Below, piece after piece: positions 431 through 7,617 of a DNA stretch of 39,061 nucleotides. Position 1 is the first letter of the stretch; every line of letters begins with the position of its first letter. The stretch is from Planctomycetota bacterium (GTDB lineage Bacteria > Planctomycetota > Planctomycetia > Pirellulales > Pirellulaceae): contig CAUJKE010000012.1 of the NCBI GenBank assembly GCA_963205385.1, forward strand, positions 1 to 39,061, in the 5' to 3' direction. The notes beneath the pieces are model-generated. The model searched no databases, had not been told where the DNA came from, and was given only the letters and a program-made list of their open reading frames with translations. A program made the position numbers and the translations under genes.

Positions 431-2989
431 TTACACATCCAAGTTCCGTACTTCCAGCGCGTGTTTCTCGATGAATTCGCGGCGGGGTTCGACGTGGTCC
501 CCCATCAAGACGCGGAACATTTCATCGGCGGCGCCGGCGTCTTTCATTTGCACTTTGACCAAGGTGCGGTTGGCCGGATCGAGCGTGGTTTCGCGCAATT
601 CTTCGGCGTTCATTTCACCCAGACCCTTAAACCGTGTTAGCTGGAGGCCCTTTTGCCCGGCTTCGCGCACGGCTTGTAATAGCCCGCGGAGATCTTCGAT
701 CCCCTTTTCGTCTTCGCCGCGGCGGAGCACGTAGCGCGATTCCTGGCTACCGGTCCGTTCCTGCGGGATGAGCGCGGAGAGATCGAAGCCCATCGTCGCG
801 AGATCCTTCAGCGCGCCGTTGATCGTCCGGACTTCGTGCAGTTCGGTGATGTGCAAGTGCGTCGGAGGCTGGCCATTGGTTTGGCCGTTGGCGCCGGTTG
901 TTCTGGGTTGGGCGACGTCCGCAGCCGTGTCAGGCGCCGCGCCGGAGTGTACGACATCGACCGCCAACTCGCCGCCGGCTTGTTCTTCCTGATGTTCGAG
1001 GAACGCATCGAGTTCCGGCCGTGAGGAGAACCAATATTCCTTGCCGGAGACGATTACGTGAAACACAGGGAGCCGGCCGGCATCGTCGATGCGCGTGGCG
1101 TGGAGCTTGAGGCTGATGCCGCGGCGTTCGAGCGCTAGCAGTGCTTCTTCCACGGTCGCGAGCGTAGTGCAGAGTTGGCGCATTTCCTCGCCGCCGATCG
1201 TGCGGCCGTCGCGCGGATCGAACATGGCGTCGGCCAGGCCCTTTTCCAAGAGTTGCGCCTTCATCTCCTCTTCGGTCTGCACGTAATACACCTTCTTGCC
1301 CACCCGCACGCGATACAGCGGCGGCTGCGCAACATAGACATGCTCTTCCTTCACGAGCTGATACATCTGCCGATAGAAGAAGCACAACAGCAGGGTGCGA
1401 ATGTGCGAGCCATCGACGTCGGCGTCGGTCATGATGATGATTTTATTGTACCGCCGCTTGGAAATATCCTGATCCTCGCCGATCCCGCAGCCGATCGCCG
1501 CGATAATGCTTTGCACTTCCTCGTTGGCGAGCACTTTATCTTCGCGCGATTTGTAGGCGTTGATGATTTTACCCCGGAGCGGCAAAATCGCCTGAAATTC
1601 GCGCAGGCGGCCCCCTTCGGCGGAACCGCCGGCCGAATCGCCTTCGACCAGGTACAGCTCGCACTTTTCCATTTCCTTGCTACTGCAATCGCGCAGTTTG
1701 CCGGGCAGCGCGCCGCCGCCGAGTGCGTTCTTTCGCGTGCGGAGCGCGTCCTTCGCCTTGCGGGCGGCCTCGCGCGCTTCGGCTGCGAGAAGTCCCTTGC
1801 GAACGATCGTCTTGGCGACTTTGGGATTCTCTTCGAGATACTTGTTGAAATACTCGCCAAACGCCGCGTTGATGATCCCTTCCACTTCCGCGTTGAGCAG
1901 CCGCGTTTTGGTTTGCCCTTGGAACTTGGGTTCGGGAACCTTCACCGAGACGATGACCGTCAACCCTTCGCGGAAGTCTTCGCCGGTGGGGGTGACGTCC
2001 TTGAACAGATCTTCCCGCTTACCGTAGGCGTTGAGCGTGCGAGTGAGCGCGGCGCGAAAGCCGGAGACGTGCGTGCCGCCGTCGGGCGTGTTGACGTTGT
2101 TGACGTAGGAGTTGAGGTTCTCGGTGTATTCGTTGGCGTACTGAAAGGCGATTTCGTAGATGACATCCTCCGACTCGCCGTGGATGTAGATCACGTCCTT
2201 ATGGATCGCCTCGCTGGCCCGGTTGAGATACTCGACGAACTCGATGATCCCGCGCTCGTAGTGGAATTCCTCCCCTTGGCCGGTCCGCTCGTCCTTGAAG
2301 ATGATCCGCACGCCGTTGTTGAGAAACGCGAGCTCGCGGAGCCGCTTGTGGAGTACGTCGTACTGGAACTTGGTGCTGGCGAAAATGGTGGCATCGGGCT
2401 TGAAGGTCACGCGCGTGCCCCGCTTGCTCGTGGCGCCCATGCGGCGCACCGGGCCCTGCGGCACGCCGCGCTCGTACTCTTGCTGGTACATGTGGCCGTT
2501 GCGGCAAATCTGCACCTCGCACCATTGCGAGAGGAAGTTCACCGCCTTGACGCCGATGCCGTGCAAGCCGCCGGAAGTCTTGTAGCTCTTCTTATCGAAC
2601 TTGCCGCCGGCCTTGAGGTTGGTCATGGCAACTTCAAGGGCGGTGATCTCGCGGCCCAGCCGGATGGATTCGTCCTCGTGCCTCTCCACAGGGATGCCGC
2701 GGCCGTCATCCTCGACGGAGACGGAACCGTCGTTATTGATAATTACGGAAACATGCCTGGCATGCCCGGCCATCACTTCGTCGATGCAGTTATCGACCAG
2801 TTCATAAACCAGGTGATGCAAGGCCGCGCCGGTGTGGACGTCCCCCACATACATGCCGGGGCGAAGGCGGACGTGATCGACATCGGACAGATGTTGAATC
2901 GCCTCGGAGCCGTAATCGCCCTCGAGATTCGGCTTGAGATCGGGGTTGGGCGTCGAGGTTGGTTCTTCAGGTAGTTCGGCGTTACTCAT
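431..2989 (-). CDS. gyrB: DNA gyrase subunit B
   Basis: ATPase subunit of gyrase (GyrA2B2), which introduces negative supercoils. The 852 residues show the GHKL ATPase domain first: ELVDNCIDE with the catalytic Glu/Asn around 63-71, DDGRGIP at 94-100, and GLHGIGVKAVN at 141-151. The transducer follows (QTKTRL around 359-363), then the TOPRIM domain with LVEGDSAGGSA at 447-457 and DADVDGSH at 522-529. The C-terminal GyrB tail includes RFKGLGEMN at 786-794. A segment of roughly 200 residues (about 568-780) separates TOPRIM from the tail. The comparable insertion in E. coli-type GyrB explains the length, against about 640 residues in Bacillus. The ATG at 2989 has no obvious Shine-Dalgarno. The gene follows dciA by 79 bp at the end of the dnaA-dnaN-dciA-gyrB series. 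ParE is a theoretical alternative, but context and motifs favour GyrB. Confidence 0.97.
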   Translation of the reverse strand: MSNAELPEEPTSTPNPDLKPNLEGDYGSEAIQHLSDVDHVRLRPGMYVGDVHTGAALHHLVYELVDNCIDEVMAGHARHVSVIINNDGSVSVEDDGRGIPVERHEDESIRLGREITALEVAMTNLKAGGKFDKKSYKTSGGLHGIGVKAVNFLSQWCEVQICRNGHMYQQEYERGVPQGPVRRMGATSKRGTRVTFKPDATIFASTKFQYDVLHKRLRELAFLNNGVRIIFKDERTGQGEEFHYERGIIEFVEYLNRASEAIHKDVIYIHGESEDVIYEIAFQYANEYTENLNSYVNNVNTPDGGTHVSGFRAALTRTLNAYGKREDLFKDVTPTGEDFREGLTVIVSVKVPEPKFQGQTKTRLLNAEVEGIINAAFGEYFNKYLEENPKVAKTIVRKGLLAAEAREAARKAKDALRTRKNALGGGALPGKLRDCSSKEMEKCELYLVEGDSAGGSAEGGRLREFQAILPLRGKIINAYKSREDKVLANEEVQSIIAAIGCGIGEDQDISKRRYNKIIIMTDADVDGSHIRTLLLCFFYRQMYQLVKEEHVYVAQPPLYRVRVGKKVYYVQTEEEMKAQLLEKGLADAMFDPRDGRTIGGEEMRQLCTTLATVEEALLALERRGISLKLHATRIDDAGRLPVFHVIVSGKEYWFSSRPELDAFLEHQEEQAGGELAVDVVHSGAAPDTAADVAQPRTTGANGQTNGQPPTHLHITELHEVRTINGALKDLATMGFDLSALIPQERTGSQESRYVLRRGEDEKGIEDLRGLLQAVREAGQKGLQLTRFKGLGEMNAEELRETTLDPANRTLVKVQMKDAGAADEMFRVLMGDHVEPRREFIEKHALEVRNLDV

Positions 2990-3068: not shown

Positions 3069-3428
3069 TTATTGGTTTGCCAGCACTCCCACCTTGAAGC
3101 GCACGTCCTTGAGCTTCTGGTCTACGGCGAGGGCTTGGAGTTTGGTAAGGATTTGTTTCTTTTGAAAGGTCAGTTCTTGGAGCACGGCGCAGTCGCGGAC
3201 GATCACTTCCAGCACTCCCCGCTTGATGTTGCCGGCGCGGGTGTCGGCCGCGAGCGTTTCCCCCACCGCCGCGCGCCAGGCGTCGTCCAAGGCGCTGGTC
3301 GCTAACACTCGCCCGTAGCCGCGCTTGCTGAGCAAGCTCGACATCACATTGCCGACATGCTGCGGCACGCGAATCCGCGGCCGCCGCTGGTTCACCAGGT
3401 GCTCCATCGAGTCGAGATCATCAGTCAT
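3069..3428 (-). CDS. dciA: DUF721 / DciA-family helicase-loading protein
   Basis: A 119-residue protein with the DUF721 pattern: an N-terminal helical segment (VPQHVGNVMSSLLSKRGYGR), then the conserved W-x-x-A-V-G core (DDAWRAAVGETLAADTRA), then beta strands (GVLEVIVRDCAVLQELTFQKKQIL). DciA proteins are the ancestral operators of the replicative helicase DnaB in bacteria that lack DnaC or DnaI; this is established for the family. The gene sits between dnaN and gyrB, 36 bp after dnaN, where many bacteria carry recF followed by a DUF721 gene. Its place in a replication cluster strengthens the call. The ATG at 3428 has no strong Shine-Dalgarno, but the conserved core begins soon after it, so the start is reasonable. 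Confidence 0.8.
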   Translation of the reverse strand: MTDDLDSMEHLVNQRRPRIRVPQHVGNVMSSLLSKRGYGRVLATSALDDAWRAAVGETLAADTRAGNIKRGVLEVIVRDCAVLQELTFQKKQILTKLQALAVDQKLKDVRFKVGVLANQ

Positions 3429-3464: not shown

Positions 3465-4577
3465 TTAATCGCGTGACAGCGGCATGACGACGTAGTTGTA
3501 GCCATCGGCGGTCGAGAGCAGCACGGGACCGTCGCCGTCGCCGAATTCAAACGTGAAGATCTTTTCAGGATCGAGCACCTTGCAAAACTCGGCGACAAAG
3601 CGGTTATCGAGCGTGACCCTCACTTCGGCTCCTTCGTAGGGCACAGGCAGTTCCACGCGAGCCTGACCCACCTCGGCGGTGAGCGCGACGAGCTCGAGCG
3701 AACCGTTGCCGAACGTGAAGTCGATGCCGCGGCTATCGTCGCTGGTGACAATCGCCGCTTGCCGCAGCGCCGAGAAAAACGGCCCCACGTTGAAATCGAC
3801 CTTGGCCGCATCGGTGCGGTTGGGGAGCACATCGCGCCACCGCGGGTAACGCCCTTCCACCAGGCGCGAGTAGATCGTCGCTCGCGGCGTTTGAATGAGG
3901 ATGTCGTTGGGTCGCGCCGCGATTTGCACTTCGGCGTCGCCGTCGGTGAGGATCCGCTCCAAGAGCGCCATCGAACGTGTCGGCACGATCGTCGTCCCGT
4001 CACCGCTGAGATGTCCGCCGACGCTCTTCGCGGGGCCTTCCATTTTGGCCAGCCGTCGCCCGTCCGTGCCGACGGCGATGATCTTGTCCTCATGAAACTC
4101 CAGGAGCACGCCCCCCAGTGCGTAGCGGCTGCTTTCGACATCGGTTGCGAAGATCGTCCGGCGAATCAACTCTTTCAGCAAGCGCGCGGGAATTTCGTGA
4201 TACTTTTCTTCGTTAAACGTGGCGACAGTTGGGAATTCGTCCGGATTTTCCGCGTTGAGCTTGAACTCGCTGCGATCTCCTTTGACAATCGTGCCGCGGT
4301 CGGTCGTCTCGATGCGCAGCTTGTCGTCGCTCGATTCGCGGAGAATCGAGCCGAACCTTCCCACGGGAAGCACCACGCTCCCCCCTTGGGCGATCTCAAG
4401 CCCCGCGACTGACAGGCGGATGCCGACTTCCTGATCGGTCGCCATCAAAATGCCGCCGGCGTCGGTCACGTCGAGCTTGACGTTTTGCAGGATCGCCTTG
4501 GGACTGCGGTTGGGCGCCACCGTGGCCGCGGCTTGAAAGGCCGGCAAGAACTGCTCGCGATCGCAGGTGATCTTCAT
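3465..4577 (-). CDS. dnaN: DNA polymerase III subunit beta (sliding clamp)
   Basis: The beta clamp encircles DNA and tethers DNA polymerase III and many partner proteins. The 370-residue length and the three-domain layout fit the family. The first domain starts MKITCDREQFL and includes AILQNVKLDV and the GSVVLPVGRFGSILRES segment. The middle domain has FATDVESSRYALGGVLLEF and the VGTDGRRLAK motif. The third ends with YNYVVMPLSRD, a typical clamp C-terminus (VMPxR/K). GAGGAAGAGAG lies 7 bases before the ATG at 4577. The gene lies 277 bp downstream of dnaA and 36 bp upstream of dciA, the conserved dnaA-dnaN order. Confidence 0.97.
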   Translation of the reverse strand: MKITCDREQFLPAFQAAATVAPNRSPKAILQNVKLDVTDAGGILMATDQEVGIRLSVAGLEIAQGGSVVLPVGRFGSILRESSDDKLRIETTDRGTIVKGDRSEFKLNAENPDEFPTVATFNEEKYHEIPARLLKELIRRTIFATDVESSRYALGGVLLEFHEDKIIAVGTDGRRLAKMEGPAKSVGGHLSGDGTTIVPTRSMALLERILTDGDAEVQIAARPNDILIQTPRATIYSRLVEGRYPRWRDVLPNRTDAAKVDFNVGPFFSALRQAAIVTSDDSRGIDFTFGNGSLELVALTAEVGQARVELPVPYEGAEVRVTLDNRFVAEFCKVLDPEKIFTFEFGDGDGPVLLSTADGYNYVVMPLSRD

Positions 4578-4854
4578 CGGCTGACTCTCTTCCTCTTAGT
4601 ATGTTTCTTGTAGGTAGCAGTAAGAATGCGTGAGCGAGAAGTGTTAGCAACGGCCGGCAGCCGACGGATAAGTCGTGTCAGCGGCGGCGGTTAGCGAGGT
4701 TTCGTAAGCGATCAATGGGGGTGGAAAACATGTTGGTTCGACGTTGGCGTGGCGTTGAGCGAATGTTGTGCGTGTCGCTAGTTCGCGGCGAATTGACGTG
4801 AATGTTGAAATTCATCCGTTTCGTGAACAACCGGCGACAATGGGCGAACAGGTT
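4578..4854. other. dnaA-dnaN intergenic region
   Basis: This 277-bp spacer holds the dnaN leader. In many bacteria oriC lies here or upstream of dnaA. I searched for TTATCCACA-like boxes on both strands and found only one poor match (GTTTTCCAC on the minus strand near 4727-4735). No AT-rich repeat array is visible. An origin therefore cannot be supported from the sequence alone. Confidence 0.4.
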
Positions 4855-5946
4855 TTACACGTGATGTTCTAAACGCTGGCGTAAGGTCTCGTACTGTTTC
4901 TGGAATTCATGTTCGGCGGCGAGCCGCGTGGTAGTCTTCTGGCAAGCGTGCATGACGGTCGTATGGTCGCGGTGGCCGAGCTGCCGGCCAATCTCTTGAT
5001 AACTGAGGCCCAACAGCTCGCGCATCAAGAGCATCGCCATGCCGCGGGCGGTGGTGAGTGATTGACGCCGCGACGGGCCTTTGAGGTCAGCCATTTTCAC
5101 GCGCAATTCCTTCGCTACGGCGGCGATGATCTCGCGCGGGGTGATGTTATTCGCCGTCGCATGGCCAACGAGCGCTGCGGCGACCATCGCTTCATCGAGC
5201 GGGCGACGCTGCACGCTGGCCGTGTGCAATAACTGCGCGAGCAGCGCGAACAGTTGCGATGGCGGCCCGCTCACGGCGTCCGCGAGTTGCGCCACACACA
5301 CCGCGGGGACGGATTGTTGTTGATTCGCGAGATACTGCGCGATCATTTCCTGCCGTGTGCTCGGCTCCGGCCAGACGAGTCCAACGGCTAAGCCCCCAGC
5401 GAGCCGGCTGGCGAGATCGGCCGTGAGCTCGTTTGCCGGCGGCGCGGCGCGTAACGTGATGATCGTGCGCGTCCCCTGTTCGGCCATCAGGTCGAGCATG
5501 CGGCGGAGTTCTGCTTGCGCGGGAATCTTGTTTGCCAGGTGATGCACGTCGTCGAGCACCACGAGTGAAGTCGCGGTAAAACGCTCGCGAAAGTCTTCCA
5601 AACCGGACGTCTCGAGCGCGGTCGCGTAGGCACGCGCGAAGTCCGCCGCGGTCATGAACAACGGTGGCTTGCTGGCGGCGTGCTCGGTTTGCCACTGCTG
5701 GGCCAGCGCCAGCGCGAGCATCGTTTTGCCGGCGCCGGTCGGTCCATAAATCACCAGCGGCTGGAGCCAGGCATCATGCTCTTGAAGCGCGGTGGGGAGC
5801 GTGCGGACGACGGCGTTTTCATCGCCGGCGATGAACGCGCGCAGCGGCAGCGCTGCCGTGCTGTGACGCGCGGCGCTGATGCGGGGCGAGAAGTTGAACT
5901 CCATCCCACGCGGACCTAGCGGAATCGAAAACGTGCCGCTAACCAA
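4855..5946 (-). CDS. dnaA: Chromosomal replication initiator DnaA, domain I-less form
   Basis: Initiator ATPase that binds and opens the origin. Only about 35 residues precede the AAA+ domain, so domains I and II of classical DnaA (about 450 residues) are absent. Walker A is GPTGAGKT (68-75) and Walker B is LVVLDD (128-133). The SRL...GLAVGLVWPEPSTR stretch matches the box VII region. The usual LEGAL sensor-2 helix reads GPPSQLFALL (227-236), without the expected Arg. Domain IV is well conserved: RGMAMLLMRELLGLSYQEIG and the signature GHRDHTTVMHA (324-334). I chose the TTG at 5946 because AAGGGAG sits 5 bases upstream. A TTG at 5970 is an upstream option with no nearby Shine-Dalgarno, and the first ATG is at 5904. 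Hda/DnaA-like regulators lack domain IV, so this is DnaA proper. Confidence 0.9.
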   Translation of the reverse strand: MVSGTFSIPLGPRGMEFNFSPRISAARHSTAALPLRAFIAGDENAVVRTLPTALQEHDAWLQPLVIYGPTGAGKTMLALALAQQWQTEHAASKPPLFMTAADFARAYATALETSGLEDFRERFTATSLVVLDDVHHLANKIPAQAELRRMLDLMAEQGTRTIITLRAAPPANELTADLASRLAGGLAVGLVWPEPSTRQEMIAQYLANQQQSVPAVCVAQLADAVSGPPSQLFALLAQLLHTASVQRRPLDEAMVAAALVGHATANNITPREIIAAVAKELRVKMADLKGPSRRQSLTTARGMAMLLMRELLGLSYQEIGRQLGHRDHTTVMHACQKTTTRLAAEHEFQKQYETLRQRLEHHV

Positions 5947-5982
5947 CGAGACTCCCTTCGATAACGACAATGCGAGGTCGCA

Positions 5983-6093: not shown

Positions 6094-7305
6094 TTATCGG
6101 CCGTCCTGACGAGGTGGAGCAGGCGAATTTCGGCGGTTTTGGCGTGCGCGCAAGTCTTTGACAACACGTAAGATACGGCGAGTCGCCTCCTCGGCTTCCC
6201 CGACCGTGTTCAAAGCTCCAAAACTGAACCGTAGCGAACCCGAAATTACCGCCTGCGGCAGCCCCATCGCCATGAGCACCGCGGACGGTTCGCTCGACCC
6301 GCTCGCACACGCTGACCCGGTCGCGCAGGCTACCCCGGCCATGTCGAGGGCGAGGAGCAACTCTTGCCGATCCAGCCCCAAAAAGGCCAGATTCGACGTG
6401 TTGGGGAGCCGCGGAGCGAACTGGCCGTTGATGACGAGTTGGTCGCCGAGGGCCGCGCGGAGCAGTGTTTCGAACCGATCGCGCATCAGCCGCAATTGCG
6501 TCTGGCGCGCGGCCGTATGTCCCACGGCATGCGCCAGCGCCGCTTGAAAACCGAGCGCCAGCGCCACCGATTCGGTCCCCGGGCGGAGTCCCTCCTGTTG
6601 GAAACCGCCGAACAGGATCGGGGCGAGCGGGAAGTGGCTTTCGCCGCGGATGAGCAGTGCGCCGATGCCGAGCGGGCCGTGGAACTTGTGCGGGGCGATG
6701 GTCAACGCGGCCACGCCGAGCGCTGCGAGATCAAGATCGAGCTTGCCGATCGCCTGTACGGCGTCTGTCGCCAGCGCAGCGCCGTAGCGCTGGCACAGTT
6801 GGGCCAGTTCGGACAACGGCTGCACGACGCCGGTCTCGTTGTTGGCCAGCATGACGCAGACGAGACTCGACGGCGGCGAGTGCGCGAGCAGTGCGGCGGC
6901 CTGGTCCAGATCGATGACGCCGATGGAGGTGACCTGCAGATAATCGACCTGCACACCGCGCGTGGAGAGATACCGGGCGACGCCTATCACGCTGGGATGC
7001 TCGATCCGCGAAACGATCAACCGCGCCGGCGGCGACTGCAAATAGCCGCGCAACAGGAGGTTATTCGCTTCCGTGCCGCCGCTGGTGAAGATCAAGCGAT
7101 CGGCGGCCATTCCGCTGGTCTTTGCGCCCAACAGTGCGAGGATGGACTCGCGCGCCTCTTGCAAAACCCGCCGCGCCCGCTGTCCCGCTTGATGCTGACT
7201 CGCCGGATTGACATACCCGGCCGCCAGCGCGGCGTGCAGCGCCCCGGCCACCTGCGGCATGAGCGGCGTGGTGCTGTTGTTATCGAGATAAATCGCGTCG
7301 GTCAT
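6094..7305 (-). CDS. Cysteine desulfurase (NifS/IscS family)
   Basis: PLP enzyme that takes sulfur from L-cysteine as a persulfide for Fe-S clusters, tRNA thiolation or cofactors. It has 403 residues, normal for the family. Visible motifs: the N-terminal IYLDNNSTTP, FTSGGTEANN (73-82), EHPSV with the PLP-stacking His103, ANNETG (154-159), the PLP-binding Lys207 in APHKFHGP, and the catalytic loop ATGSACASGSSEPS with Cys333. The ATG at 7305 puts IYLDNN at the usual distance from the N-terminus. A TTG nine bases upstream would add three residues. The gene is co-directional with dnaA, 147 bp upstream of the chosen dnaA start. No iscU, sufBCD or rrf2-type partner is nearby, so the sulfur acceptor is unknown. 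The IscS/NifS type is clear, but which of the two is not. Confidence 0.93.
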   Translation of the reverse strand: MTDAIYLDNNSTTPLMPQVAGALHAALAAGYVNPASQHQAGQRARRVLQEARESILALLGAKTSGMAADRLIFTSGGTEANNLLLRGYLQSPPARLIVSRIEHPSVIGVARYLSTRGVQVDYLQVTSIGVIDLDQAAALLAHSPPSSLVCVMLANNETGVVQPLSELAQLCQRYGAALATDAVQAIGKLDLDLAALGVAALTIAPHKFHGPLGIGALLIRGESHFPLAPILFGGFQQEGLRPGTESVALALGFQAALAHAVGHTAARQTQLRLMRDRFETLLRAALGDQLVINGQFAPRLPNTSNLAFLGLDRQELLLALDMAGVACATGSACASGSSEPSAVLMAMGLPQAVISGSLRFSFGALNTVGEAEEATRRILRVVKDLRARQNRRNSPAPPRQDGR

Positions 7306-7617
7306 GTGTGGCAAGGTGCGTGCGGCGGACAGCCGGCCGGAAAGATTGCAGGCAGATGCTCATCTGATTCTAGTCCCAGTGGTCGCGGTTCGACACACCA
7401 GATGGAAACCCGCGAGGGAAACCCACGTCAAACCCAAACGTCGCGGCTCTGGGCACCGCGGTTCCACGCTCGTATTGCTATTGCCGCGAACGGATTTAGA
7501 ATTCAGCGCAGTTGCTGAGGTTCGGCGTATGGGATGACAAGGCGGGACCACTTGATGGACTCCTGGCATGACTTCTTCCACGGTTAACCTTCCACGGTTA
7601 ACACAGAACACATCCGC
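7306..7617. other. Divergent gap between cysteine desulfurase and DUF2442 gene
   Basis: This stretch of about 310 bp must hold the promoters of the two divergent genes. Apart from a 14-bp tandem duplication near its right end (listed separately), no convincing gene is seen. In particular there is no DUF4160 reading frame, the usual partner of DUF2442. Confidence 0.4.
7575..7602. repeat. Perfect 14-bp tandem duplication before the DUF2442 gene
   Basis: Two exact adjacent copies of CTTCCACGGTTAAC (7575-7588 and 7589-7602) end 15 bases before the proposed GTG start at 7618. Each copy contains the palindrome GTTAAC. Directly repeated sites in this position could be a paired operator, or a recent slippage duplication. 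The sequence does not decide between them. Confidence 0.6.

Follow-up and report, generated by a model that had tools for sequence, protein, structure and literature searches.

A short, domain-I-less DnaA at the replication origin of Planctomycetia, and a full-length partner with which it may share initiation

DnaA is usually seen as a single protein for every step: finding the origin, sensing ATP, melting the DNA and recruiting the helicase. What, then, is to be made of a dnaA gene whose product begins almost directly with the AAA+ domain? Such a gene lies in the window considered here (the whole 39,061-nucleotide stretch of planctomycete DNA that was analysed), and an earlier note, made from the sequence alone, had read it as a sign of initiation without DnaA domain I. 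The question is whether this conclusion follows, and the surroundings of the gene are the place to start. In the window, the features are:

431 to 2989, minus strand: gyrB, assigned by translation and by synteny with relatives
3069 to 3428, minus strand: dciA, helicase operator/loader (PF05258, 65.1 bits, cut-off 24)
3465 to 4577, minus strand: dnaN, beta clamp (three Pfam DNA_pol3_beta domains)
4613 to 4652, minus strand: basal-unwinding-like element, a GC-rich spacer and then a DnaA-trio-like repeat, CATTCTTACTGCTACC (trio part 4613 to 4628)
4720 to 4861, no strand: oriC array, a divergent pair of DnaA boxes at a distance of 133 bp, from which GT/AC half-sites run inward in 11-bp phase (leave-one-out model)
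4720 to 4728, minus strand: DnaA box TTTTCCACC on the dnaN side, GT steps at 4720, 4731, 4742, 4753 and 4764
4853 to 4861, plus strand: DnaA box TTTTACACG, which overlaps dnaA-S at its 3' end, with AC steps at 4859, 4848, 4837 and 4827
4855 to 5946, minus strand: dnaA-S, short DnaA of 363 aa, AAA+ domain III and domain IV (Pfam, alignment, AF2)
6094 to 7314, minus strand: class-V aminotransferase, cysteine desulfurase-like (PF00266, 205.8 bits)

The order aminotransferase, dnaA, dnaN, dciA, gyrB is that of an ordinary origin cluster, and the aminotransferase upstream of dnaA is a conserved neighbour both in genomes with the short gene and in planctomycetes with a single DnaA. The helicase operator that had been proposed next door is indeed DciA, although a position beside dnaN and gyrB is its usual place in 15 phyla, Planctomycetes included (PMC5109545). 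Open reading frames of up to 599 aa run antisense to gyrB (471 to 2974, plus strand); they are a side effect of the 61% GC content and not genes.

The short protein (hereafter S) is encoded by an open frame at 4855 to 5970, minus strand, which codes for domains III and IV only, with Pfam matches to Bac_DnaA (PF00308, 69 bits, cut-off 23) and Bac_DnaA_C (PF08299, 85.6 bits). Because a Shine-Dalgarno-like AAGGGAG lies five bases 5' of the TTG at 5946, this codon is the most likely start and the product most likely has 363 aa; the alternatives (TTG 5970, ATG 5904) do not add domain I. From stop to stop there are just 77 residues ahead of the AAA+ domain, against 127 to 304 in the long paralogs described below. 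The departures in sensor-2 that the note had pointed out are also real: Ser stands where E. coli has R334, and LFALL takes the place of the LEGAL core. In the pocket that captures DnaA-trios, Glu183 and Ile190 are both replaced by Ala. Domain IV is as normal as had been described, with R399, R407, D433, H434, T435 and H439 all present. The Walker A motif does read GPTGAGKT, but the significance once attached to it had to be given up: residue 176 is free to vary in either paralog family, with Val, Thr, Ser and Cys common and Leu nearly absent, so the variant is uninformative.

Structure prediction gave little beyond confirmation of the fold. The AF2 model, built with 24 family members, has a confident AAA+ domain and domain IV (mean pLDDT 90.8), and among solved structures it best matches the B. 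subtilis DnaA of 8btg, an origin-opening complex. The protein scores 205.4 bits against the DnaA equivalog TIGR00362, below the cut-off of 343.9. Hda is likewise an AAA+ relative in which domains I and II are absent, but S has a domain IV where Hda has none, and its 58.3 bits on TIGR03420 are far below the Hda cut-off of 194.8. At the extreme N-terminus (window 5906 to 5946) a short motif, G.FSIPL, recurs in many S proteins of the family. AF2 predicts it as a small beta hairpin (pLDDT about 75 to 88), and family f21 has lost it; it is possibly a docking peptide.

Could the shortness be an artefact, the result of a wrong start codon, of an exon-like part missing upstream or of a contig that is chimeric? 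The TTG start and a draft assembly of 417 contigs would allow for it, but the short gene is there in complete single-contig genomes too, where the stretch before the AAA+ domain, from stop to stop, can be as little as 6 to 32 residues. This also disposes of an in-frame upstream extension, and the artefact reading, already refuted by these genes of relatives, can be set aside. Among the S proteins examined, 35 of 36 have 6 to 95 residues ahead of the AAA+ domain, stop to stop, and in the one with a 180-residue open frame the starts leave 125, 76, or at most 47 residues. The absence of domains I and II thus stood up for the window protein, and all 36 are without domain I; in the domain I test of the S proteins, DnaA_N was not among the Pfam families listed for A1.

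The origin-linked DnaA is without the helicase-recruiting domain, and another protein must therefore supply recruitment. A candidate is at hand in the same genome (6.03 Mb, 97.6% complete). The separate full-length dnaA that the note had named as fatal to its proposal is there: a second gene (G000:C352:6392-7825) encodes a DnaA of 477 aa, hereafter L, with intact ATPase motifs and sensor-2, whose AAA+ domain scores 144 bits where that of S scores 71. Its domain I is modelled by AF2 with the fold alpha-alpha-beta-beta-alpha-beta, and Pfam DnaA_N is found in 21 of 25 L orthologs. A GNAT-like acetyltransferase gene lies upstream of L in this genome (locus L264), and the same-strand upstream neighbour clusters with this gene in 13 of 19 genomes.

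How general is the pair? Exactly two DnaA C-terminal domains occur in 56 of 60 relatives; of the other four, three carry additional weaker domains and G043 carries a single one. The usual pair consists of S, short and linked to dnaN, and L, long and unlinked, and L is present in 60 of 60. With a full-length, domain-I DnaA in this genome and in all of these relatives, initiation without domain I is not implied for the organism, and only half of the earlier proposal survives, namely that the DnaA linked to the origin truly is without it. In genomes drawn over the phylum, about 115 of 148 have at least two DnaA. Of 148 genomes of the class, 19 have one; the 11 of these inspected, and G043, have the L type only. 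G043 (loci L285, L289, L292), a relative from the same order with a genome of 3.0 Mb, has neither S nor a box array in its dnaN region, where another gene lies upstream of dnaN; trios had seemed visible there, but the match was dropped, with a model score of 5.2. In five genera (G010, G012, G027, G035, G036; for example loci L270, L269, L092, L271) L lies directly upstream of dnaB on the same strand, and since these form one subclade the arrangement may go back to a single event.

Which copy, then, marks the origin? GC skew was sampled in four complete relatives (G027, G005, G176 and G041) as 20 pieces of 20 kb each, a coarse survey of about 6% of each chromosome. In G027 it stays mostly above zero from 0 to about 4.2 Mb and mostly below zero between 4.6 and 8.2 Mb; G005 shows positive values up to 2.3 Mb and negative ones from 3.0 Mb onward; and in G176 the skew is positive to 2.4 Mb, then mixed, then mostly negative. 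In these three of the four, the turn from minus to plus falls at base 0, which is the S and dnaN locus; L lies at 3.53, 5.32 and 1.26 Mb in G027, G005 and G176, that is, 1.3 to 3.5 Mb from the S locus. Because of this skew and of the box arrays described next, the S locus is the replication origin.

The stretch between dnaA-S and dnaN is built to a strict plan. At 29 S loci two DnaA boxes, one minus-oriented and one plus-oriented, enclose 132 to 137 bp (27 loci) or 145 bp (two loci), and in an unselected histogram 27 of 81 minus-plus pairs fall at 130 to 139 bp, with at most 6 in any other 5-bp bin. From each box an AC step recurs inward every 11 bp, in 52 of 58 arms at -5, 49 at -16, 23 at -27 and 16 at -38, against typically 0 to 8 elsewhere; the remaining sequence cannot be aligned. 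An array model trained each time without the genome tested gives the window 52.0 bits at 4720 to 4861, with 4.1 as the next best score in 39 kb, and gives held-out relatives 20.9 to 56.7, while the regions around L and random controls stay at or below 12.6. Beyond the array, a trio-like repeat and then an AT-rich tract lie 79 to 81 or 87 to 94 bp from the plus box, two positions about one helical turn apart; the trio-like element is found at 79 to 94 bp in 27 of 28 relatives, and the bin of the AT-rich tract is 34 points richer in AT than the mean of the locus. In the window this element scores 25.1 bits on the trio model, leave-one-out, and the next best site 11.8; in G176 and G041 it does not stand out on that model. 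At the sequence level it has what defines a basal unwinding system, that is, one or more DnaA boxes, a short spacer, and at least three trios with a central A, in the strand order of B. subtilis, although in the window the box adjacent to the trios is degenerate (TTGCTAACA).

These parts recall two well-studied origins. As at E. coli oriC, where R1 and R4 are the anchors, two opposed arrays start from strong outer boxes and the sites follow at 9 + 2 bp, or 11 bp (PMC6070618); in E. coli the low-affinity sites are filled inward from R1 and R4 (PMC6070618). The S origin differs in a spacing near 134 bp throughout the class, in half-sites reduced to AC/GT and in its place between dnaA and dnaN, and E. 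coli oriC itself scores 5.7 on the array model, which is no match. As in B. subtilis, a box-like element, a GC-rich spacer, CTA-type trios and an AT-rich tract follow in the same order and orientation (PMC8287927, PMC10721633), but here the element lies outside a two-armed array, 79 to 94 bp from its outer box, and the DnaA linked to it is without the residues that hold trios. Judged from its sequence, the S origin combines opposed arrays of the E. coli type with a basal unwinding element (PMC6070618, PMC8287927). Similar phased arms upstream of dnaN were also seen in Selenomonadales (101 to 102 bp apart), Chlorobiales (124 to 125 bp), Clostridium and planctomycetes without S (loci L186, L204, L231, L314, L319, L320, L324), with 203 and 214 bp among the other spacings of these non-S loci; such arms in a few other phyla make the design principle wider than Planctomycetia.

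A further question concerns what each copy has kept. Residues were counted in 36 S, 23 L and 26 canonical proteins, the last being 12 outgroups, 7 single-copy proteins and 7 dnaN-linked proteins of deep planctomycetes; outgroups and controls are canonical DnaA of other phyla, which made up most of the matches in a scan of contigs with the S alignment. The Walker Lys and the Arg finger R285 are present in every protein of the three groups, and R399, R407, H434 and T436 are likewise invariant in the 36 S. The sensor-2 Arg, R334, is kept in all outgroups (12/12), single-copy (7/7), deep dnaN-linked (7/7) and L proteins (23/23), 49 of 49 together, against 12 of 36 S, and Asp269 in 26 of 26 canonical, 20 of 23 L and a single S protein of 36. 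The trio pocket follows the same course. Glu183 (B. subtilis numbering) is found in 25 of 26 canonical and 23 of 23 L proteins but in 1 of 36 S; Asn187 is kept in none of the 36 S, of which 26 have Arg; and position 190 is Ile or Val in 26 of 26 canonical proteins, Leu in 13 of 23 L and Ala in 23 of 36 S, with Ile in 3. In domain IV the losses are on the other side: D433 is present in 26 of 26 canonical and 31 of 36 S proteins (Asn in 5) and in no L of 23 (Ser in 16, Asn in 5), while H439 is present in 18 of 26 canonical proteins (Tyr in the others), 35 of 36 S and no L of 23 (Ser in 19). That each copy lost features that the other keeps suggests that initiation is shared between two DnaA proteins. 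The S pocket carries a FARxYA motif and is remodelled under constraint rather than plainly decayed; S may therefore have a single-stranded DNA contact of its own. In 21 of 23 L proteins Arg281 (E. coli numbering), at the AAA+ interface, has become Glu, which reverses the charge and may reflect an altered interface between subunits.

Over one shared set of 24 genomes the mean identity of S is 32% in the AAA+ core, against 51% for L, and lower in 276 of 276 pairs; in domain IV it is 48% against 60%. By these identities S evidently evolves faster than L. S (36 rows, SH-aLRT 99) and L (23 rows, SH-aLRT 97) each form one clade, the branches of S being long, and tree tests accept both an S + L clade (p-AU 0.62) and a clade of S with the canonical dnaN-linked proteins (p-AU 0.63). 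Although the tree accepts both origins, synteny and D433/H439 favour descent of S from the canonical gene. Among deep planctomycetes, those with a single DnaA carry it full length in the same synteny, and where there are two the dnaN-linked one is full length. Two deep planctomycetes (G067, G100; loci L262, L286, L287) have one dnaA that does not adjoin dnaN, and in G067 the array model gives the region upstream of dnaN a score of 39, at 157 bp.

How could two such proteins work together? In the B. subtilis complex subunits 1 and 2 sit on boxes and the others along the trios, with the Arg fingers pointing away from the boxes (PMC10721633); there Glu183 and Asn187 bond the trio adenine, and the I190A protein is dead for single-stranded DNA and cannot open the origin (PMC10721633). 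Set against this complex, the residues that S has lost make it resemble subunits 1 and 2, and L the others. We therefore propose, at a probability of roughly 45%, that S is a box-binding platform and L the subunit that binds ATP, captures trios and recruits the helicase. S would nucleate through domain IV on the two divergent boxes of the adjacent oriC and spread inward along the 11-bp-phased half-sites, its AAA+ domain having kept Walker A and the Arg finger. L, which retains domain I, the pocket for capturing trios and the whole ATP site, would use the AAA+ interface to stack on S, so that the Arg finger of box-bound S would reach the ATP of L; it would then extend onto the DnaA-trios and open the duplex, and its domain I would bring DnaB, with DciA. 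The two genes, their distribution, their residues, the origin sequence and the GC skew are observations; the presence of S and L in one filament and every activity named here are what we infer. In favour of a division of labour are the S/L pair, the skew at S, the reciprocal residues, the kept boxes and trios, the adjacency of L and dnaB and the fold of domain I in L. Against a strict one are the single-DnaA genomes with L only, the constrained pocket of S and the limitation of the L-dnaB adjacency to one subclade. The stronger version, in which throughout Planctomycetia S is limited to recognising the origin and L to ATP sensing, capture of single-stranded trios and helicase recruitment, and in which a mixed S-L filament opens the origin, is doubtful.

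Lost box recognition by L had been considered as a firm claim, and it was weakened by several S-less genomes of family f74, which have L only and keep box arrays upstream of dnaN. L can therefore serve alone there and presumably reads boxes. In S-less genera of family f21 (G258, G269, G308; loci L302, L303, L304) L has Asp433, unlike most L, which may be a return to box binding after the loss of S. S is therefore helpful yet dispensable on an evolutionary time scale, a picture that fits a regulator as well.

Is S, then, such a regulator? On this view it would sit on the boxes and cap or titrate the L filament, acting as an on/off switch both at oriC and at its own operon, with L alone responsible for initiation. 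L is universal, and lineages that lost S kept their viability; S has no sensor-2, trio pocket or domain I, yet keeps the Arg finger and box contacts, and its faster evolution would suit this role. But most genomes of the class retain S beside an elaborate origin, and a pure repressor would not need 11-bp-phased arrays like the assembly sites of E. coli, so that we regard this reading as unlikely, if still a serious competitor. Fast evolution, long branches and repeated loss would also be expected if L were the sole initiator and S a relic or a box-binding transcription factor controlling the dnaA-dnaN region, DnaA being known to act as a transcription factor. A relic, however, would lose the six residues that are invariant in 36 of 36 S, and skew and box arrays place S at the replication origin; this reading is improbable.

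Slightly more improbable still is the proposal of the earlier note, that S initiates alone without domain I and that DciA or another adaptor recruits DnaB. S does sit at the origin with DciA adjoining, domains III and IV of E. coli and B. subtilis DnaA open an origin in vitro (PMC5448010; PMC10721633), and DciA acts after open-complex formation (PMC5109545). Yet every genome searched has a full-length, domain-I DnaA, S is without the residues that hold trios and sense ATP, the same N-terminal truncation is lethal in E. coli (PMC5448010), and genomes without S survive. With the canonical proteins of E. coli and B. subtilis S has in common Walker A and B, the Arg finger, the box contacts of the domain IV helix-turn-helix and the dnaA-dnaN location; it differs in being without domains I and II, the sensor-2 Arg, Glu183, Asn187 and Ile190, and in being partnered by a full-length DnaA. 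The smallest characterised DnaA reported has 399 aa (PMC5448010). Several dnaA genes are also known from Kuenenia, which is reported to have three and where the copy by dnaN and gyrB marks the origin (PMC7709395), and from the chlamydia Waddlia, with DnaA1 and DnaA3 (PMC4989314), but no short domain-I-less copy is described there. In the literature searched there was no description of an origin-linked DnaA without domain I paired with a full-length one, which is weak evidence of novelty, subscription papers being mostly outside that search.

What would such a pair mean? The tasks of DnaA appear to be separated onto two proteins across a class of cultivable bacteria, and a mixed S-L filament, if true, would be a bacterial parallel to the heteromeric ORC. 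Each task of initiation could then be removed and measured singly, with a bearing on why domain I is essential elsewhere. In Planctomycetes, the assignment of origins and the annotation of dnaA would then have to tell two genes apart, and their two-armed, 11-bp-phased origin offers a clean test bed for DnaA filaments on double-stranded DNA.
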